Of a stretch of 40,444 nt of DNA, positions 5,130 through 11,893 are shown in pieces (the stretch's first letter is position 1; every line of letters begins with the position of its first letter). The stretch lies in the NCBI RefSeq assembly GCF_000373365.1, contig NZ_KB891239.1, forward strand, positions 1 through 40,444. Direction: 5' to 3'. The notes under the pieces are model-generated. The model made no database searches. It was not told the DNA's origin and saw only the letters and a program-made list of their open reading frames with translations. The DNA is from Parafrankia discariae. Its GTDB lineage: Bacteria > Actinomycetota > Actinomycetes > Frankiales > Frankiaceae. Both the position numbers and the translations under genes were made by a program.

Positions 5130-5416
5130 GCGGGCGCGAGATGGACGGGCTGCGCTCGTCGACACACCTGGGGCTGCACGTGGGCGCGGACTGGTCGGCC
5201 CGCTGCCACACCTACCCGGACAAGCCGCCGATCCTCTCCGTCCACACGGGCCGGACGACGCTGTCCGTCTCGGCGGCCGGTAGCGCGGTGACCTCGGATC
5301 AGGTCGACTTCGCGTACGCCCTGCTCGCCGCGGTGAACGACTACCTCATTGAATGCGAGAGGTTCCGGTTCGCCGCACAGGACGCGGCCGAACTCCCGGG
5401 GCATCTCGCCGCTTAG
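5126..5416 (+). CDS. small conserved AICE protein, function unknown
   Basis: 96 residues starting at a GTG that overlaps the Pra stop by 4 nt (GTGA), so translation is coupled. It contains LHVGADWSARCHTYPD, a short strand-rich centre (TGRTTLSVSAAGS) and a helical tail. No known domain, signal or membrane helix. The position between pra and traB is typical for small helper proteins of these elements. Confidence 0.65.
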   Translation: MSGREMDGLRSSTHLGLHVGADWSARCHTYPDKPPILSVHTGRTTLSVSAAGSAVTSDQVDFAYALLAAVNDYLIECERFRFAAQDAAELPGHLAA

Positions 5417-5455
5417 CCGCTCCTCTTAGCTGCTCCGCGGTTCTCCTTCGCATCA

Positions 5456-5505
5456 GGCGGCCCGGAACCCTTCGTTCGGACGGGCGGATGGGTTCCGGGC
5501 CCGCC
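5456..5505. terminator. strong hairpin in the traB leader
   Basis: GGCCCGGAACCC (5459-5470) pairs perfectly with 5490-5501, and the stem extends by four more pairs past a one-base bulge; the loop is 19 nt. A pyrimidine-rich tract follows (5506-5540). It lies in the 158-nt gap before traB and could terminate the pra transcript or attenuate traB. Confidence 0.6.
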
Positions 5506-5574
5506 GGTCCTTCCCTCCTCTCCCCTTTCTTTCGGCTCCTGGTTTCGTGCGCTCTGAAACAGGTGGTATCTGTC

Positions 5575-7152
5575 ATGTCCAGAATCAACGGCGACCGGGG
5601 AATACCCCGCATTCCGTCCCGGCCCGACAAGATGCGGGTCCCGATGTGGATGCTGGTGCTCGCGGTGGCGGGCAAGGGGCTGGCGCTCGGGGTCCGCTGG
5701 TGCTGGCGGCACCGGGTGGCGGTGCCGGTCGCGCTCGGCCTGGCGCTGTTCACGCGCCGCTTCGGGACGCTGGGCCTGGCGGCGCTGCTCGTCGCCCTGG
5801 CCCTGGTCGCGGTGGTCTGGCGACGCCTGCACGCCCGGTCGTTCGGCTGGCTGGCCCGCTGGGTGTGGGGACGGGTGCGGCTCGGGTTCGTGTACCGGCG
5901 GCGGTGGCGGCCGGCGATGGTGCACTCGGGCCTGGCGATCCGCATGCCGGCGTCGAACGGCGATCAGGTGACCTTCGACGAGTACTTCCCGCGTATCCGT
6001 TCGATCCGCTCGACCCGGGCCGTGGACGTGCTGCGGGTGGAACTGCTCCCGGGGCAGACACCGGAACAGTGGGCGGACGCGGCCGAAGGACTGCGGCACG
6101 TCTTCCGGGCCCGGCGCTGCCAGGTGCAGGGCGAGCCGTCCCGTTTCGTCCGGCTGCACTTGCACCACCGAGACACCCTGACCACCCCGGTTGAACCGGC
6201 TGGACTCGACCCGTCCGGCCCGGTCATCGATCACGACCCGGACGGCGACGTTACGGCGACCGGCGAGCCTGACCGGCTCGTCGGGGACCTCTCGGCCGTT
6301 CGCGTCGGCCGGCGGGAGGACGGCGAGCCCTGGACGCTGCCCGTGCGGGGAACGCATCTGCTCATCGCGGGCGCCACCGGCGCGGGCAAGGGCTCGGTGC
6401 TGTGGTCGGTCATCCGCGGTCTCGGCCCGGCCGTGCGCGCCGGCCTCGTCGAGCTGTGGGTCTGCGACCCCAAGGGCGGCATGGAACTCGCGTTCGGCGA
6501 GCCGCTGTTCACCCGGTTCGCCACCACCACGGAAGCGATCGCGGATCTCCTCGACGACGCGGTGTCGGTGATGCAGGACCGCACGGCCCGGCTGCGCGGG
6601 GTGACCCGGCTCCACACTCCGACTCCGGGTGAGCCGCTGATCGTTCTGGTGGTCGACGAGATCGCCTCGTTGACGGCCTACGTCACCGACCGGGACGTCA
6701 AGAAGCGGATCGGCGCTGCGCTGCCGCTGTTGCTCTCCCAGGGCCGGGCGCCCGGGGTCGTGGTCCTGGCGGCGGTGCAGGACCCGCGCAAGGAAGTGCT
6801 GCCGTTCCGGGACCTGTTCCCGGTCCGGGTCGCACTGCGCATGACCGAAACCGAACAGGCGGATCTCGTGCTCGGCTCCGGTGCCCGTGACCGGGGCGCA
6901 CGGGCGGACGAGATCCCGGTGTCCCTGCCCGGGGTGGGCTACGTGCTCCACGAAGGACAACCGGAACCGGTCCGGGTCCGGGCCTCGTTCATCGACGACA
7001 CCGAGATCAGCCGGACCGTGTGGTCCTACCGGCCCACTCCCGCGGCCGGCACCGGCTGGACACCGGACCTCGACCCCTACCGCGACAACGACCCGGCGGA
7101 CCACGACCACGACCACTCCGGCGACGGCTCCTGGTGGGGTGAGGTGGCGTGA
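5575..7152 (+). CDS. FtsK/SpoIIIE-type DNA translocase, TraB-like conjugation protein
   Basis: 525 residues from the ATG at 5575 (AGGTGG 8 nt upstream). Two N-terminal membrane stretches (about residues 23-41 and 46-82) are followed by an FtsK-type ATPase domain: Walker A GATGAGKGS (about 266-274), Walker B LIVLVVDEIAS (about 355-365), and the QGRAPGVVVLAAVQDP block seen in FtsK-family motors. TraB-type proteins move double-stranded DNA between mycelial cells in actinomycete conjugation. The C-terminus is His/Asp-rich (DHDHDHSGD). The GTG of the next gene overlaps its stop by 4 nt. A stem-loop precedes it. I see no spd spread gene in the visible part of the element. Confidence 0.88.
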   Translation: MSRINGDRGIPRIPSRPDKMRVPMWMLVLAVAGKGLALGVRWCWRHRVAVPVALGLALFTRRFGTLGLAALLVALALVAVVWRRLHARSFGWLARWVWGRVRLGFVYRRRWRPAMVHSGLAIRMPASNGDQVTFDEYFPRIRSIRSTRAVDVLRVELLPGQTPEQWADAAEGLRHVFRARRCQVQGEPSRFVRLHLHHRDTLTTPVEPAGLDPSGPVIDHDPDGDVTATGEPDRLVGDLSAVRVGRREDGEPWTLPVRGTHLLIAGATGAGKGSVLWSVIRGLGPAVRAGLVELWVCDPKGGMELAFGEPLFTRFATTTEAIADLLDDAVSVMQDRTARLRGVTRLHTPTPGEPLIVLVVDEIASLTAYVTDRDVKKRIGAALPLLLSQGRAPGVVVLAAVQDPRKEVLPFRDLFPVRVALRMTETEQADLVLGSGARDRGARADEIPVSLPGVGYVLHEGQPEPVRVRASFIDDTEISRTVWSYRPTPAAGTGWTPDLDPYRDNDPADHDHDHSGDGSWWGEVA

Positions 7153-7385
7153 ACGGCCCGGCTGGCGAGATGCCTGACGATCTGCTCGACTCGGCCGCGC
7201 CGGTGCCCGTCCTGCCAGTCTGCGCGACCTGCGGGCACCTGCGCATCACCCACCGGCGCGGCCGATGCCGTGCGGACCTCGGCTCGGGAACCGCCTGCGG
7301 CTGCGCCTTTTTCATCACCGCGCCGGCCCGTCCGCCGGCCGGTGTGCGCCTGGACCTCGACGACCGGGAGGACCGCACCTCTTGA
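7149..7385 (+). CDS. small zinc-ribbon-like protein
   Basis: 78 residues; GTG start overlapping the traB stop and TGATG overlap with the rep gene, so it is locked into the operon. A Cys cluster (VCATCGHLRITHRRGRC, then ACGCAF) gives CxxC and CxC pairs with intervening His, a likely zinc knuckle. Proteins of this type often sit beside repSA genes in such elements, function unknown. Confidence 0.7.
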   Translation: MNGPAGEMPDDLLDSAAPVPVLPVCATCGHLRITHRRGRCRADLGSGTACGCAFFITAPARPPAGVRLDLDDREDRTS

Positions 7386-9106
7386 TGACTGGCCTCACCC
7401 CCGCCGGCCTCGACCCCTCCTCCGGCCGTGACGATCGTGACGATCGTCCGGGTTCCCGGGCGGCGCGGATGCGGATGCCGCTCGCTCGTCAGGTCGTGGA
7501 AACGGTCGCCGTGGAGAACGGCGTGTGCGTGCGGCCGATGGCGATGCGCCGGACGAACCTCGACACCGGCGAAACCGAGATCATCCCGGTGCCGTGCGGG
7601 GCCACCCTGGCGAGCAAGTGCCCGACCTGCGCGGAGCGGGCCCGGCGGCTGCGGATGGCGCAGTGCAAGGCAGGCTGGCACCTGGACGACGAACCCCTTC
7701 CCGACCCGGACCCGCCTACGGATGAGGCGAAGACCCTCGCGGGCTTCCGCGCCGATCTCGAAACCGTCCGGCTCGACGCTGAACGCGACGGGGACGCGGC
7801 CGGCGTCGCCGAGATCGACGAACTCATCGGCCAGGTGGACGAGGAACTCAACGCGCTCGGCGTGCGGGGGAAGGCGGCGCCGGACAGTCGGGATCGGCCT
7901 CGCCGTGTCCGCTCGACCCGCCGGCGGCAGGATGCCCCCGACCTGCCCCGGCTCCCGGTGGACAAGCGGACAGTCGGACGGACCTTCGAAGCGACGGACG
8001 GCACCACCTGGCGGCCGTCGATGTTCCTGACCCTGACCTGCGACTCGTACGGGCGGGTGACCAGTGAGGGAACCCCGGTAGACCCGGGCTCGTACGACTA
8101 CCGGCGGGCGGCCCGCGACGCGATCCACTTCCCGAAGCTCATCGACCGGTTCTGGCAGAACCTGCGCCGCGCGGTCGGCTGGGATGTGCAGTACTTCGCC
8201 ACCCTCGAACCGCAACGGCGGCTCGCCCCGCACCTGCACGCGGCCATCCGCGGCACCGTGCCCCGGGTCCTGCTGCGGCAGGTGGCGGCGGCCACGTATC
8301 AGCAGATCTGGTGGCCCTCGTGTGACCGGCCAGTCTATGACGACACGTGCCTCCCGGTCTGGGACGACACCGCGGCCCGCTACCTCGACCCGGACACGTC
8401 CCGACCCCTCCCGACCTGGGATGAGGCGGTGGACGCGATCGGCGACGATGACGAACCGGCCCACGTCGTCCGCTTCGGGCCACAACTCCGCGCGGACGGT
8501 GTCACGGCGAACTCGGCGAACACCGGCCGGATGATCGGCTATCTGACCAAGTACCTGGCGAAGAGCCTCGACGCCTGCCACGCGGTCACCACCGACGCGC
8601 AGCGGCGGCACGTCGATCGGCTCGCGGACGCGCTGCGCCACGAACCGTGCTCGCCTACCTGCGCGAACTGGCTGCGCTACGGCGTCCAGCCGAGAAACCC
8701 GAAACCGGGCCTCGTCCCGGGGCGGTGCCGGGGCAAGGCCCACCGGCGGGAGACCCTCGGGTTCGGCGGACGGCGGGTGCTCGTCTCGCGGCGCTGGTCC
8801 GGCAAGACCCTGACCGACCACAAGCACGACCGGGTCGCGTTCATCCGGGAGCAACTCGAAGCCCTCGGCCAAGTGGCGACCGGCCCGGCGGCCACCGGCA
8901 CCGACCCGGCACGGACGGTGTGGACGCTGCTTCGGCCCGGTGACCCGGCGGCCCCTCGCCGCGAACACCTGCTGTTGCAGGCGGTCGCGCAACGGCATGC
9001 CTGGCGCGCACAACTCGACGCGGCCCGCGCCGCCACAGCGGCCGGCACCGCCACGGCCGGCGGACTTCCGGGAACCGGCCCACCGGCGGTGGCCGACGCT
9101 GCCTGA
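7385..9106 (+). CDS. repSA: RepSA-like rolling-circle replication initiator (HUH)
   Basis: 573 residues from the ATG in the TGATG overlap at 7383-7387. Motifs of the pSAM2 RepSA family are in order: MFLTLTCDSYG (motif I, about residue 214), APHLHAAI with the HUH histidines (about 280-285) and YLTKYLAKS with the nicking tyrosine (about 386). An N-terminal Cys cluster (CGATLASKCPTCAERAR) probably binds zinc. The protein nicks its origin and starts rolling-circle replication after excision. The double-strand origin is not identified; it may lie within the gene or in the structured region 10027-10205. Xis follows 30 nt later. Confidence 0.88.
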   Translation: MTGLTPAGLDPSSGRDDRDDRPGSRAARMRMPLARQVVETVAVENGVCVRPMAMRRTNLDTGETEIIPVPCGATLASKCPTCAERARRLRMAQCKAGWHLDDEPLPDPDPPTDEAKTLAGFRADLETVRLDAERDGDAAGVAEIDELIGQVDEELNALGVRGKAAPDSRDRPRRVRSTRRRQDAPDLPRLPVDKRTVGRTFEATDGTTWRPSMFLTLTCDSYGRVTSEGTPVDPGSYDYRRAARDAIHFPKLIDRFWQNLRRAVGWDVQYFATLEPQRRLAPHLHAAIRGTVPRVLLRQVAAATYQQIWWPSCDRPVYDDTCLPVWDDTAARYLDPDTSRPLPTWDEAVDAIGDDDEPAHVVRFGPQLRADGVTANSANTGRMIGYLTKYLAKSLDACHAVTTDAQRRHVDRLADALRHEPCSPTCANWLRYGVQPRNPKPGLVPGRCRGKAHRRETLGFGGRRVLVSRRWSGKTLTDHKHDRVAFIREQLEALGQVATGPAATGTDPARTVWTLLRPGDPAAPRREHLLLQAVAQRHAWRAQLDAARAATAAGTATAGGLPGTGPPAVADAA

Positions 9107-9621: not shown

Positions 9622-9657
9622 GGTCCCGGTGGGTGCTGCGAACACCCGACCGGGACC
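9622..9657 (+). terminator. leader stem-loop before the gene at 9695
   Basis: GGTCCCGGTGGGTG (9622-9635) pairs with 9643-9657 with one bulged G and a 7-nt loop, giving a 14-bp stem. It sits 38 nt before the ATG, in the presumed 5' leader, and could be an attenuator or an RNA control element. Confidence 0.55.
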
Positions 9658-9694
9658 TGAGATCCCACCCTGCTCACGACAGGAGCGAGACCCT

Positions 9695-9994
9695 ATGCCC
9701 ATTTTCCCGTCCGGCAGTTCCGGCGCCTGGCGCACCCCCGGTGACGGCAGATCCGCCCTCATCTCCGTGCGCCGCACCGACACCGGCTACGAACTGCTCG
9801 TCCGTCCCGGCGCGGACGTCGGCGACCTGATGCAGGTGCTCGCGGGGTTGCCCGTGGACGCCTTCTTCACCGAGCACTTCGGCGACGTTGACGCGGTCCT
9901 CGCGTTCCACCGCCTGCCCGGTCTTTCGGCAACGGTCCTGGACGGCTGGAACCCCTCGACCGGCCCGGCGGCGGCGAGCGTTCCCCGCCTGTAG
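9695..9994 (+). CDS. small unknown AICE protein, FGDVDxVL family
   Basis: 99 residues; ATG at 9695 with AGGAG at 9681-9685. The stretch ELLVRPGADVGDLMQVLAGL plus FTEHFGDVDAVLAF parallels the 155-residue protein at 3560-4027. The shared block spans about 50 residues (strand, helix, strand). No signal, no membrane segment, no known domain. Its long leader carries twin palindromes and a hairpin, so it appears to be tightly controlled. Confidence 0.65.
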   Translation: MPIFPSGSSGAWRTPGDGRSALISVRRTDTGYELLVRPGADVGDLMQVLAGLPVDAFFTEHFGDVDAVLAFHRLPGLSATVLDGWNPSTGPAAASVPRL

Positions 9995-10026
9995 CGGCTG
10001 TTCTGCCTGCTCTACCCCCATTTTTC

Positions 10027-10205
10027 TTCCGTTCTCTGGTGGCGCTTGAAGCTGTCGGGGTGTCGGACGTGTCCAGGGTCGGCCGGAGGCCGATCGCGTA
10101 GCGACGCGCAGCGCCCTGGACGCGGCCGGCGCCCCGGCAGACCATCCCAGCGCCAGAGAACGGAAACCCACCCGCACCGGGCAACGCCACCCGCGGCCCG
10201 CGTGC
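10027..10205. other. compact multi-stem inverted-repeat element (structured RNA or origin candidate)
   Basis: An outer stem pairs 10027-10039 (TTCCGTTCTCTGG) perfectly with 10153-10165. Inside it, 10068-10078 pairs with 10114-10124 (11 bp, one G-U). That stem encloses two adjacent hairpins, 10079-10084/10088-10093 and 10095-10099/10104-10108. A further hairpin, 10125-10129/10134-10138, abuts the second stem. A last one, 10174-10182/10196-10205, follows outside. The 9995-10242 stretch has no convincing gene. It could be a non-coding RNA, a leader for the gene at 10243, or a replication or transfer origin. Stems were found by eye. Confidence 0.6.
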
Positions 10206-10242
10206 ACCTGACCCGTTCTTCCGGCAAGGAGCCGACTTCGCC

Positions 10243-10452
10243 ATGCCCACGAACAGCGACAACCGCCCGACCATGAGCCTGCAACAGGCACTCCGCGAGC
10301 ACCTCGACCGTGCCCGCGCCGGACAGGGCCTGCTCTACCCACAGCCCGAAGGAGAGTCCAAGTTCGCCTGCGACATGGGCGACAGCCGGTACGGCTGCGC
10401 TTGGTGCGACAACATCGAATGGCCCGACGGCAACCCCCTGGACGCTGACTGA
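10243..10452 (+). CDS. small Cys-containing protein upstream of the integrase
   Basis: 69 residues from the ATG at 10243, with AAGGAG at 10225-10230. The stop overlaps the integrase start (TGATG), so the two are co-translated. The C-terminal half (FACDMGDSRYGCAWCDNIEW) has three Cys, perhaps a metal site. No family recognised. Its place before int, in the same transcript, suggests a role in recombination control. Confidence 0.6.
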   Translation: MPTNSDNRPTMSLQQALREHLDRARAGQGLLYPQPEGESKFACDMGDSRYGCAWCDNIEWPDGNPLDAD

Positions 10453-11732
10453 TGGCCGCGCGCAAGGGTCGGCGCGGCGCTGGTGAGGGCGCGATCTACA
10501 AGGACGCTTCCGGCCGCTGGCGGGCGACCGTGGATCTCGGCTGGAAGGCCGGGAAGCGGCAACGGAAGTACCTGTCCGGGAAGACCCGGGCGGAGGTCGC
10601 GGAGAAGCTGCGGTCGCTGCGTCGTGAGCAGGAAGACGGTGTGGCGATCGTGACCGGTGCGAAGCCGCTGACGATGGAACAGTGGCTGACGTTCTGGCTG
10701 GACACGATCGCGGCCAGGAAGGTGCGGCCGTCGACGCTGGCGACGTACCGGGGGTACGTGCGGAACCGGATCGTTCCGGCGCTCGGCGCGGTCCGGCTCG
10801 ACCGGCTCACCCCGGAGCATCTGGAGGCGTTCTACCGCCGATGCGAGACGGAGGGCCTGGCGGCGGCGTCCGTGCTCCAGATGCACCGGATCGTCTCCCG
10901 GGCGCTGAAGGTCGCGCACCGGCGGGGGAGAGTCGCCCGAAACGTGGCGACGCTGGTCGATCCTCCCTCGGTTGACCGTGAGGAGGTCCGGCCGCTGACC
11001 GCGTCGGACGCGCGGGCTGTCCTGGACACGGCGAAGGGGCAGCGCAACGCGGCCCGGTGGTCGGTCGCGCTGGCGCTCGGCCTGCGGCAGGGTGAGGCGC
11101 TGGGGCTGCCCTGGGATGCCGTCGACCTGGACGCGACACCGGCCACGCTGACGGTGCGGCAGGCGCTGCAACGGCGGCCCTGGGAGCACGGCTGCGCCGA
11201 TCCGAAGACCTGCGGGACCGCGCGCCGGTGCCCTCATCGGACCGGCGGGGGCCTGGTGATCGTGCGGCCGAAGAGCCGTGCTGGCCGGCGGACGATCGTG
11301 ATTCCGCCGAACCTGGCGGTCAGCCTGCGGGCTCATCGTGCCACGCAGCGTGCTGAGTGCGGTGCGGCCGGCGGCGAGTGGGTCAACGAACACGACCTCG
11401 TGTTCGTCCAGCCGAACGGACGTCCGCTCGATCCCCGTGCGGACCACCGGGCCTGGCAGGACCTGCTGTCTCAGGCCGGTGTGCGGGCGGCCCGGCTCCA
11501 CGACGCGCGGCACACGATGGCGAGCCTGCTGCTGGCCCAGGGCGTTCATCCACGGGTGGTCATGGAGATCATGGGTCACTCGCAGATCAGTCTGACTCTG
11601 GGCACGTACAGCCACGTGGCGCCGGAGCTGTCCACCGACGCGGCCGACCGGATGGGCGCGGCCCTTTGGGGCACCGCAGCGCCGGCCACCGACAGCGACG
11701 ATGACCGGAAGAAGGAAGTAGAAGGGGATTGA
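10452..11732 (+). CDS. int: site-specific tyrosine recombinase (integrase)
   Basis: 426 residues. N-terminal AP2-like arm-binding region (GAIYKDASGRWRATVDLGWK), SAM-like core-binding domain (about 75-170), and catalytic domain with Arg in LALGLRQGEALGL (about 212), HDARHT (about 350-354) and the nucleophile Tyr in TLGTYSH (about 386). A Cys-rich insert (HGCADPKTCGTARRCPH, about 237-253) is typical of actinomycete pSAM2-like integrases. Only 88 nt separate the stop from the 3' end of tRNA-Lys, which faces it, as expected for integration into that gene. Confidence 0.92.
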   Translation: MAARKGRRGAGEGAIYKDASGRWRATVDLGWKAGKRQRKYLSGKTRAEVAEKLRSLRREQEDGVAIVTGAKPLTMEQWLTFWLDTIAARKVRPSTLATYRGYVRNRIVPALGAVRLDRLTPEHLEAFYRRCETEGLAAASVLQMHRIVSRALKVAHRRGRVARNVATLVDPPSVDREEVRPLTASDARAVLDTAKGQRNAARWSVALALGLRQGEALGLPWDAVDLDATPATLTVRQALQRRPWEHGCADPKTCGTARRCPHRTGGGLVIVRPKSRAGRRTIVIPPNLAVSLRAHRATQRAECGAAGGEWVNEHDLVFVQPNGRPLDPRADHRAWQDLLSQAGVRAARLHDARHTMASLLLAQGVHPRVVMEIMGHSQISLTLGTYSHVAPELSTDAADRMGAALWGTAAPATDSDDDRKKEVEGD

Positions 11733-11768: not shown

Positions 11769-11820
11769 CAATGAAAACAGCGGCCCCATCCAAAAGGAAG
11801 AAACCGCTGGTAGCTACGGG

Positions 11821-11893
11821 TGCGCCGCCAGGGACTTGAACCCCGAACCCGCGGATTAAGAGTCCGCTGCTCTGCCAATTGAGCTAGCGGCGC
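11821..11893 (-). tRNA. tRNA-Lys (anticodon CUU)
   Basis: The minus strand folds as a tRNA: acceptor GCGCCGC/GCGGCGC, D-loop GCTCAATTGGCAGAGC, anticodon stem GCGGA/TCCGC around loop CTCTTAA (anticodon CTT), T-loop GGTTCAAGTCC and discriminator A. CCA is not encoded. The 3' end points at the integrase, and it is the likely attachment site of the AICE. Confidence 0.97.

Follow-up and report, generated by a model that had tools for sequence, protein, structure and literature searches.

What is the function of the nested complementary segments that lie between small genes of an AICE in Parafrankia discariae? The window, i.e. the whole stretch of DNA analyzed here, comprises 40,444 nucleotides and contains the FtsK-like, RepSA and integrase genes of this element together with a tRNA-Lys gene (Table 1). 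An earlier note had described a nested multi-stem structure at positions 10027-10205 and had offered three explanations: a new structured RNA of pSAM2-type elements, a leader that regulates int and the gene at 10243, or an origin, either for replication or for transfer. The structure was indeed found between an ORF ending at 9994 and an ORF starting at 10243; longer mechanical ORFs in the ORF listing, however, overlap positions 10027-10165. Two further copies, 98% and 92% identical, are present in the same genome.

Table 1. Features of the folded element and of the surrounding AICE genes in the window.
Feature	Position	Strand	Remarks
FtsK-like transfer protein	5353-7152		AICE part in the window
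RepSA rolling-circle replication initiator	7265-9106	+	PF20199, E 5e-104; strand of the element
Small HTH protein	from 9137		between RepSA and Frankia-40 gene
Small gene with Frankia-40 domain	9629-9994	+	TIGR03917, E 2.8e-18; directly upstream of the element; ORF as listed, internal ATG start possible
Outer 13-bp stem, 5' arm	10027-10039	+	partner 10153-10165; perfect pairing
Internal loop (12 by 12), 5' side	10040-10051	+	
Inner stem (about 26 bp including junction stem), 5' arm	10052-10070	+	A10067 mismatched
Junction stem P1, 5' arm, GTCCAGGG	10071-10078	+	partner 10114-10121
Apical hairpin 1	10079-10093	+	C(GGA)G triloop
Apical hairpin 2	10094-10104	+	C(GTA)G triloop
Apical hairpin 3	10105-10113	+	C(GCA)G triloop
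Junction stem P1, 3' arm, CCCTGGAC	10114-10121	+	
Inner stem, 3' arm	10122-10140	+	10122-10124 plus 10126-10140; G10125 opposite A10067
Internal loop, 3' side	10141-10152	+	
Outer 13-bp stem, 3' arm	10153-10165	+	partner 10027-10039
Small gene	from 10243		between element and integrase
Tyrosine integrase of the AICE	10452-11732	+	PF00589
tRNA-Lys	11819-11893	-	ARAGORN; likely att site of the AICE, judged from its position

The element proper covers about 139 nt and forms 52 pairs in the window: 13 in the outer stem, 15 plus 3 in the inner stem, 8 in the junction stem and 6, 4 and 3 in the apical hairpins. The outer stem was confirmed as a perfect helix. The inner stem had been described with 11 bp and one G-U pair; it proved to be longer and to contain more wobbles, with a first block of 15 pairs (10052-10066/10126-10140), three of them T·G, followed by an A·G mismatch (10067/10125) and three further pairs (10068-10070/10122-10124). 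The apex carries three hairpins instead of the two that had been placed inside this stem, and the bases 10126-10140 belong to its 3' arm; no hairpin starts at 10125, and an abutment at 10124/10125 is not supported. The other abutment, at 10078/10079, is real: the junction stem ends where hairpin 1 begins. The four-way junction is perfect, without a single unpaired base between its four helices. Stability of the fold was determined as RNA over positions 10017-10215 (z = -6.7) and as DNA over positions 10017-10175 (z = -8.3); in both cases none of 200 shuffled sequences was as stable.

Covariation in homologues, which the earlier note had proposed as a check, was found. An alignment of the core from 24 sequences showed two-sided changes at 13 of 21 pairs with 97.6% of the cells paired, and one pair of the junction stem P1 was A-T in 12 and C-G in 11 of these sequences. 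In a full-length alignment of 21 relatives (23 minus L026 and L027), two-sided changes were observed at 20 of 52 pairs with 94.8% of the cells paired; the outer stem contributed changes at 7 of its 13 pairs and had 90% of its cells paired. Neither pair count was reached in any of 500 shuffles, and the control slides were far lower as well. The 5' side of the internal loop in distant members often contains a CGATA/CGTAG...GCCG motif, as seen by eye and uncounted. A hairpin after position 10170 had been counted as part of the structure; the sequence carrying it is similar among 12 close relatives, but elsewhere the element was not observed to include it. An apparent inversion of the apex in certain relatives vanished once the loci were oriented by their loops.

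The element is widely distributed, and the elements counted across our analyses are not independent of one another. DNA relatives were found in 29 of 58 related genomes. The first BLAST matches in plasmids covered chiefly the junction core; a covariance model of the junction matched 76 of 296 genomes of the class and 37 of the 58 relatives at E-values up to 0.001, and with E-values up to 1e-5 a covariance model matched 11 of 246 genomes of the phylum. A degenerate 25-mer retrieved 83 stretches from the species-genome collection, and the 80 titles listed all read as Actinomycetota. This one exact pattern gave no match in viral contigs. A phage origin was rejected on the same ground and on the lack of a phage match at E-values up to 0.01. 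Two plasmids of Acetobacteraceae (Alphaproteobacteria), from Acidiphilium and Lichenicola (L038, L039), carry the core. The smallest carrier plasmids mentioned have 1378 bp (L110) and 1579 bp (L107), and beneath most of the high-scoring plasmid matches listed no gene is annotated. Restriction to pSAM2-type elements, as first suggested, does not hold, since the element also occurs on plasmids that encode different Rep families and relaxases of the MOBF or MOBP type.

Does the element act as RNA or as DNA? The window and 89 loci, 90 sources in all, supplied 139 matches for the loop survey, corresponding to 93 places and 79 distinct elements. Three apical hairpins are present in 66 of these 79. 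C(GNA)G accounts for 173 of 219 apical loops and C(TNC)G for a single one, a count to be read with the fact that the covariance model R1 was seeded with GNA-looped sequences and hence favors GNA members; outside the elements, the same loci contain 3504 triloop hairpins with stems of at least 4, and 135 of these are C(GNA)G. With longer loops allowed, C(GNA)G accounted for 169 and C(GNNA)G for 10 of 221 loops. PMC4686876 describes GNA and GNNA loops closed by G-C pairs as extraordinarily stable DNA mini-hairpins.

The strand that folds was deduced from isolated mismatches in the outer arms. A strand-symmetric alignment of 78 elements contained 86 G·T, 26 A·C and 168 transversion mismatches; counted by element in a strand-symmetric test, G·T prevailed over A·C in 44 versus 8 cases. 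Because a cruciform would yield no such bias, the excess of G·T indicates that the GNA strand folds alone. This strand is the more stable one in 70 of 79 elements with DNA parameters and in 57 of 79 with RNA parameters, and the three-hairpin fold of the core was recovered in 56 of 79 with DNA parameters versus 30 of 79 with RNA parameters.

These data also bear on the proposal of a structured RNA, which would be a non-coding regulator, antisense RNA or RNA scaffold made from the rep-sense strand. Strong covariation and a tolerance of G·T on one strand suit an RNA as well, and the agreement with the RepSA strand described below is partly expected since AICE genes are often co-oriented. RNA-type loops are rare, however: only 3 of the 10 GNNA loops are GNRA. 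The fold is recovered better with DNA than with RNA parameters, and in the outer stems transversion mismatches outnumber G·T. Over positions 10027-10205, Rfam returned nothing above its gathering threshold and no match up to an E-value of 10. An RNA acting as a leader fares no better, as the next gene lies on the strand of the element in just 8 of 25 annotated plasmid loci (L109 and L110 excluded). The possibility that int and the gene at 10243 are governed by a leader or riboswitch was rejected: the directions of flanking genes vary, and the core is found beside unrelated genes. Of the proposed new structured RNA, the structure itself is real and covaries; an independent RNA is unlikely, and the element reads better as folded single-stranded DNA, its action as DNA being suggested by the loops.

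Elements and RepSA genes were located through separate searches and then compared. Taking the relatives and the listed matches of the class together, 56 elements have a RepSA gene above the Pfam cut-off within 20 kb, and 53 of them lie on the RepSA strand. For the relatives (133 RepSA rows including fragments and matches below the cut-off, 89 listed elements), RepSA is within 20 kb of 46 of 89 elements and the strand is shared in 43 of these 46, or in 40 of 46 when three RepSA matches below the cut-off are counted. For the class, among the matches listed (96 elements and 33 RepSA places, in genomes with a listed element), 10 of 96 elements are near RepSA, and all 10 are on its strand. The three opposite cases comprise one in which another element on the same strand is nearer to that rep gene (G005), one in which the partner RepSA is a fragment of 225 bases (G028), and one weak element match of 39 bits (G001).

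Position is far less constant than strand. Among the same-strand cases, 32 elements lie within 3 kb downstream of RepSA, 20 at 3-20 kb upstream and one less than 3 kb upstream; the upstream group is about 6-17 kb from RepSA. All 32 downstream cases belong to the window's own family (f1) and may represent one lineage. At one locus (L096), both predicted flanking genes run against the element, and RepSA shares its strand. The element was also found on the rep strand of plasmids with other rolling-circle initiators, namely Rep_1 (L035) and Rep_OBD/RepB_C (L110), as well as with a Rep_trans match below the cut-off (L107) and with a 'protein rep' known from annotation only (L036). Two Rothia plasmids that encode a theta-type Rep (replicase or primase-type) are in conflict: L108 has the element on the same strand, L109 on the opposite one.

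The RepSA-sense strand, which carries the element, is presumably the displaced strand. A strand fixed to rep combined with a flexible position matches the description of single-strand origins (sso), which, according to a passage of PMC5703833, work on the leading strand only, cannot be reversed and are flexible in their position relative to rep. It is therefore probable that the element is an sso, i.e. the site of lagging or complementary-strand initiation of an actinobacterial rolling-circle mobile element, and most likely it constitutes a new structural class of sso. Thus, the origin branch of the earlier proposals is favored by the strand tied to rep, the free position and the DNA-type loops.

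A site acting in double-stranded DNA, such as a cruciform, a double-strand origin (dso), a transfer site (clt) or the end of a transposon-like unit, appears very unlikely. For a dso, a link with a single Rep family and a place close to its rep gene would be expected, whereas several families and distances of up to about 17 kb were found; the mismatch bias reveals selection on one strand, which is not expected of a cruciform. Inverted pairs of elements flanking cargo genes in some genomes speak for such a site. A double-strand origin or TraB transfer site was rejected as a candidate in view of the several Rep families and of the relaxase plasmids that also carry the element.

Outward-facing inverted pairs of elements around cargo were observed in G167, G158, G170 and Actinomadura. 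Such outward-facing pairs at eight loci (L086, L088, L089, L087, L090, L113, L175, L183) are about 0.2-3.7 kb apart; the cargo among those scanned included NmrA-like, GntR-UTRA and DUF222 genes. In G167, the pair lies inside inverted repeats of 400-500 bp with differing cargo between them. It is possible that such pairs delimit an unrecognised cassette or mobile unit; on the chromosome, they find no explanation under the reading as sso.

Furthermore, one protein cluster, which includes a DUF222 (13E12-type) member at L140, accompanies the element at 14 of 80 genome loci; as a rule it lies on the 5' side of the element and on the opposite strand. DUF222 (13E12-type) genes adjoining the element are located at L113:2751-3983, L140:5938-7734 and L175:3308-4894, those at L113 and L175 being cargo. 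Defence-like neighbours, a PLD-helicase-DUF3427 protein and a GmrSD-type protein, were seen at L105:4590-7736 and L092:2138-3916. Three tandem copies of the element within 7 kb (L091:2805-9821) are near repeats whose translation reads as EPRGFEPLTSCLQ-like text, as does L097:4173-4235; we take these repeats to be a tRNA-derived att-like sequence, and both loci may be small islands without an integrase of their own. The copies in inverted pairs and beside DUF222 genes may be remnants or users of single-stranded mobile intermediates.

Additionally, the element was found on conjugative plasmids. Among the genome matches listed, it is opposite mobF in all 4 MOBF carriers with mobF within 10 kb, and the same holds for the three MOBF plasmids with mobF in view (L043, L111, L201), giving 7 of 7; L006, L038, L042 and L199 are typed MOBF with mobF outside the view and were left uncounted. 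If mobF enters last in these carriers, as it does in F, the strand opposite mobF would be the one transferred. In MOBP carriers the element was found on the relaxase strand in 10 of 10 cases examined (L037, L041, L044, L112, L202-L206, G108); given the similar gene order of these plasmids, this agreement may reflect single descent. When the regions upstream of mobC from nine MOBP plasmids were aligned, the AGCAAGC side, the most conserved oriT motif, was invariant, which suggests that the transferred strand would be opposite to the element strand. A further relaxase cluster in the genome loci (member L136, PF03432) was on the same strand in four cases and on the opposite strand in one. In six of nine MOBP plasmids (L041, L112, L202, L203, L204, L205) a 'recombinase family' gene ends about 70 bases or less before the element or match. 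One of these, the mobilizable plasmid pTZC1 of Cutibacterium acnes with erm(50) (L204), carries the element upstream of its mobC-relaxase genes.

The MOBF carriers, with the element on the strand that would be transferred in the F/R388 arrangement, would be expected if the element were a single-stranded-DNA promoter that drives early genes on incoming DNA, whether or not it also has a role in priming. The F-plasmid Frpo is itself a stem-loop promoter (PMC9849209), and Frpo and ssi promoters share with the element a folded single-stranded DNA on mobile DNA, as passages of PMC9849209 and PMC11541004 describe. Frpo, however, rebuilds -35 and -10 boxes, and no such pair at a spacing of about 17 bp was recognised by eye in the element. 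The directions of neighbouring genes vary, the MOBP carriers apparently have the element on the other strand, and small cryptic plasmids hold few genes to be expressed. We consider a promoter of this type quite unlikely. The MOBP plasmids, as well as the chromosomal copies and the inverted pairs, do not fit simply with an sso.

How does the putative sso compare with known systems? The complementary-strand origin of G4-type phages places primase by means of three hairpins on single-stranded DNA; likened by description, the element shares this feature. The TAGCG in hairpin 2 presumably recalls the CS-6 motif of ssoA. The sso of Gram-positive plasmids (ssoA, ssoU, ssoT, ssoW, ssoL), as far as passages of PMC5703833 describe them, likewise form a large fold of single-stranded DNA (about 160 nt for ssoA versus 139 nt here), act on one strand, are independent of rep in their position and occur in varied plasmid families. 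The element differs by its four-way junction with three GNA triloops, by being G+C-rich and by its occurrence mostly in Actinomycetota. The sti of pIJ101 is also an sso of an actinobacterial rolling-circle plasmid and lies beyond rep and the small gene spdA (PMC4170104), but the covariance model matched it poorly: membership was rejected with a best match of 14.9 bits and an E-value of 0.024 for the whole plasmid with filters off. The sso1 of ICEBs1, which has three stem-loops when single-stranded and is orientation-specific, demonstrates that an integrative conjugative element can carry an sso; it belongs to a Firmicute sequence class related to pBAA1 (PMC4595007). No published description of the element was found in the open-access literature, in which subscription journals are thinly covered, and in PMC3218068, which surveys the ICEs of actinobacteria, the terms 'sso' and 'secondary structure' do not occur.

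The fold and its covariation, the strand that folds, the loop rule and the link between this strand and rep are observations; on them we base a model in which the displaced strand, the priming step and its enzyme are predicted. A Rep protein, here RepSA, would nick the plus strand as expected from its family, and rolling-circle synthesis would displace single-stranded DNA. On this strand the element would fold into its long two-part stem and the four-way junction with three GNA mini-hairpins. The host priming machinery, either DnaG primase or RNA polymerase, may then recognise the fold and lay an RNA primer, so that the circle becomes double-stranded. Judged from carriage and strand, plasmids with other Rep proteins would share this module, and so perhaps would conjugative MOBF plasmids, in which the transferred strand arrives in single-stranded form. 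More tentatively, and with some doubt on our side, this DNA-only fold might be used generally in actinobacterial mobile DNA as a module for single-strand initiation that serves AICEs, several rolling-circle Reps, MOBF and MOBP plasmids and plasmids of Acetobacteraceae and is also the end module of the inverted-pair cassettes.

The conversion of single-stranded intermediates of AICEs and many actinobacterial plasmids to duplex DNA is poorly documented in the literature searched. If the reading as sso is true, the element would be remarkable in that covariation has preserved a fold whose action is that of DNA and not of RNA, which is uncommon. Its findable signature would allow the annotation of sso across the phylum; it would also point to the priming enzyme and provide a stability module for actinobacterial vectors.
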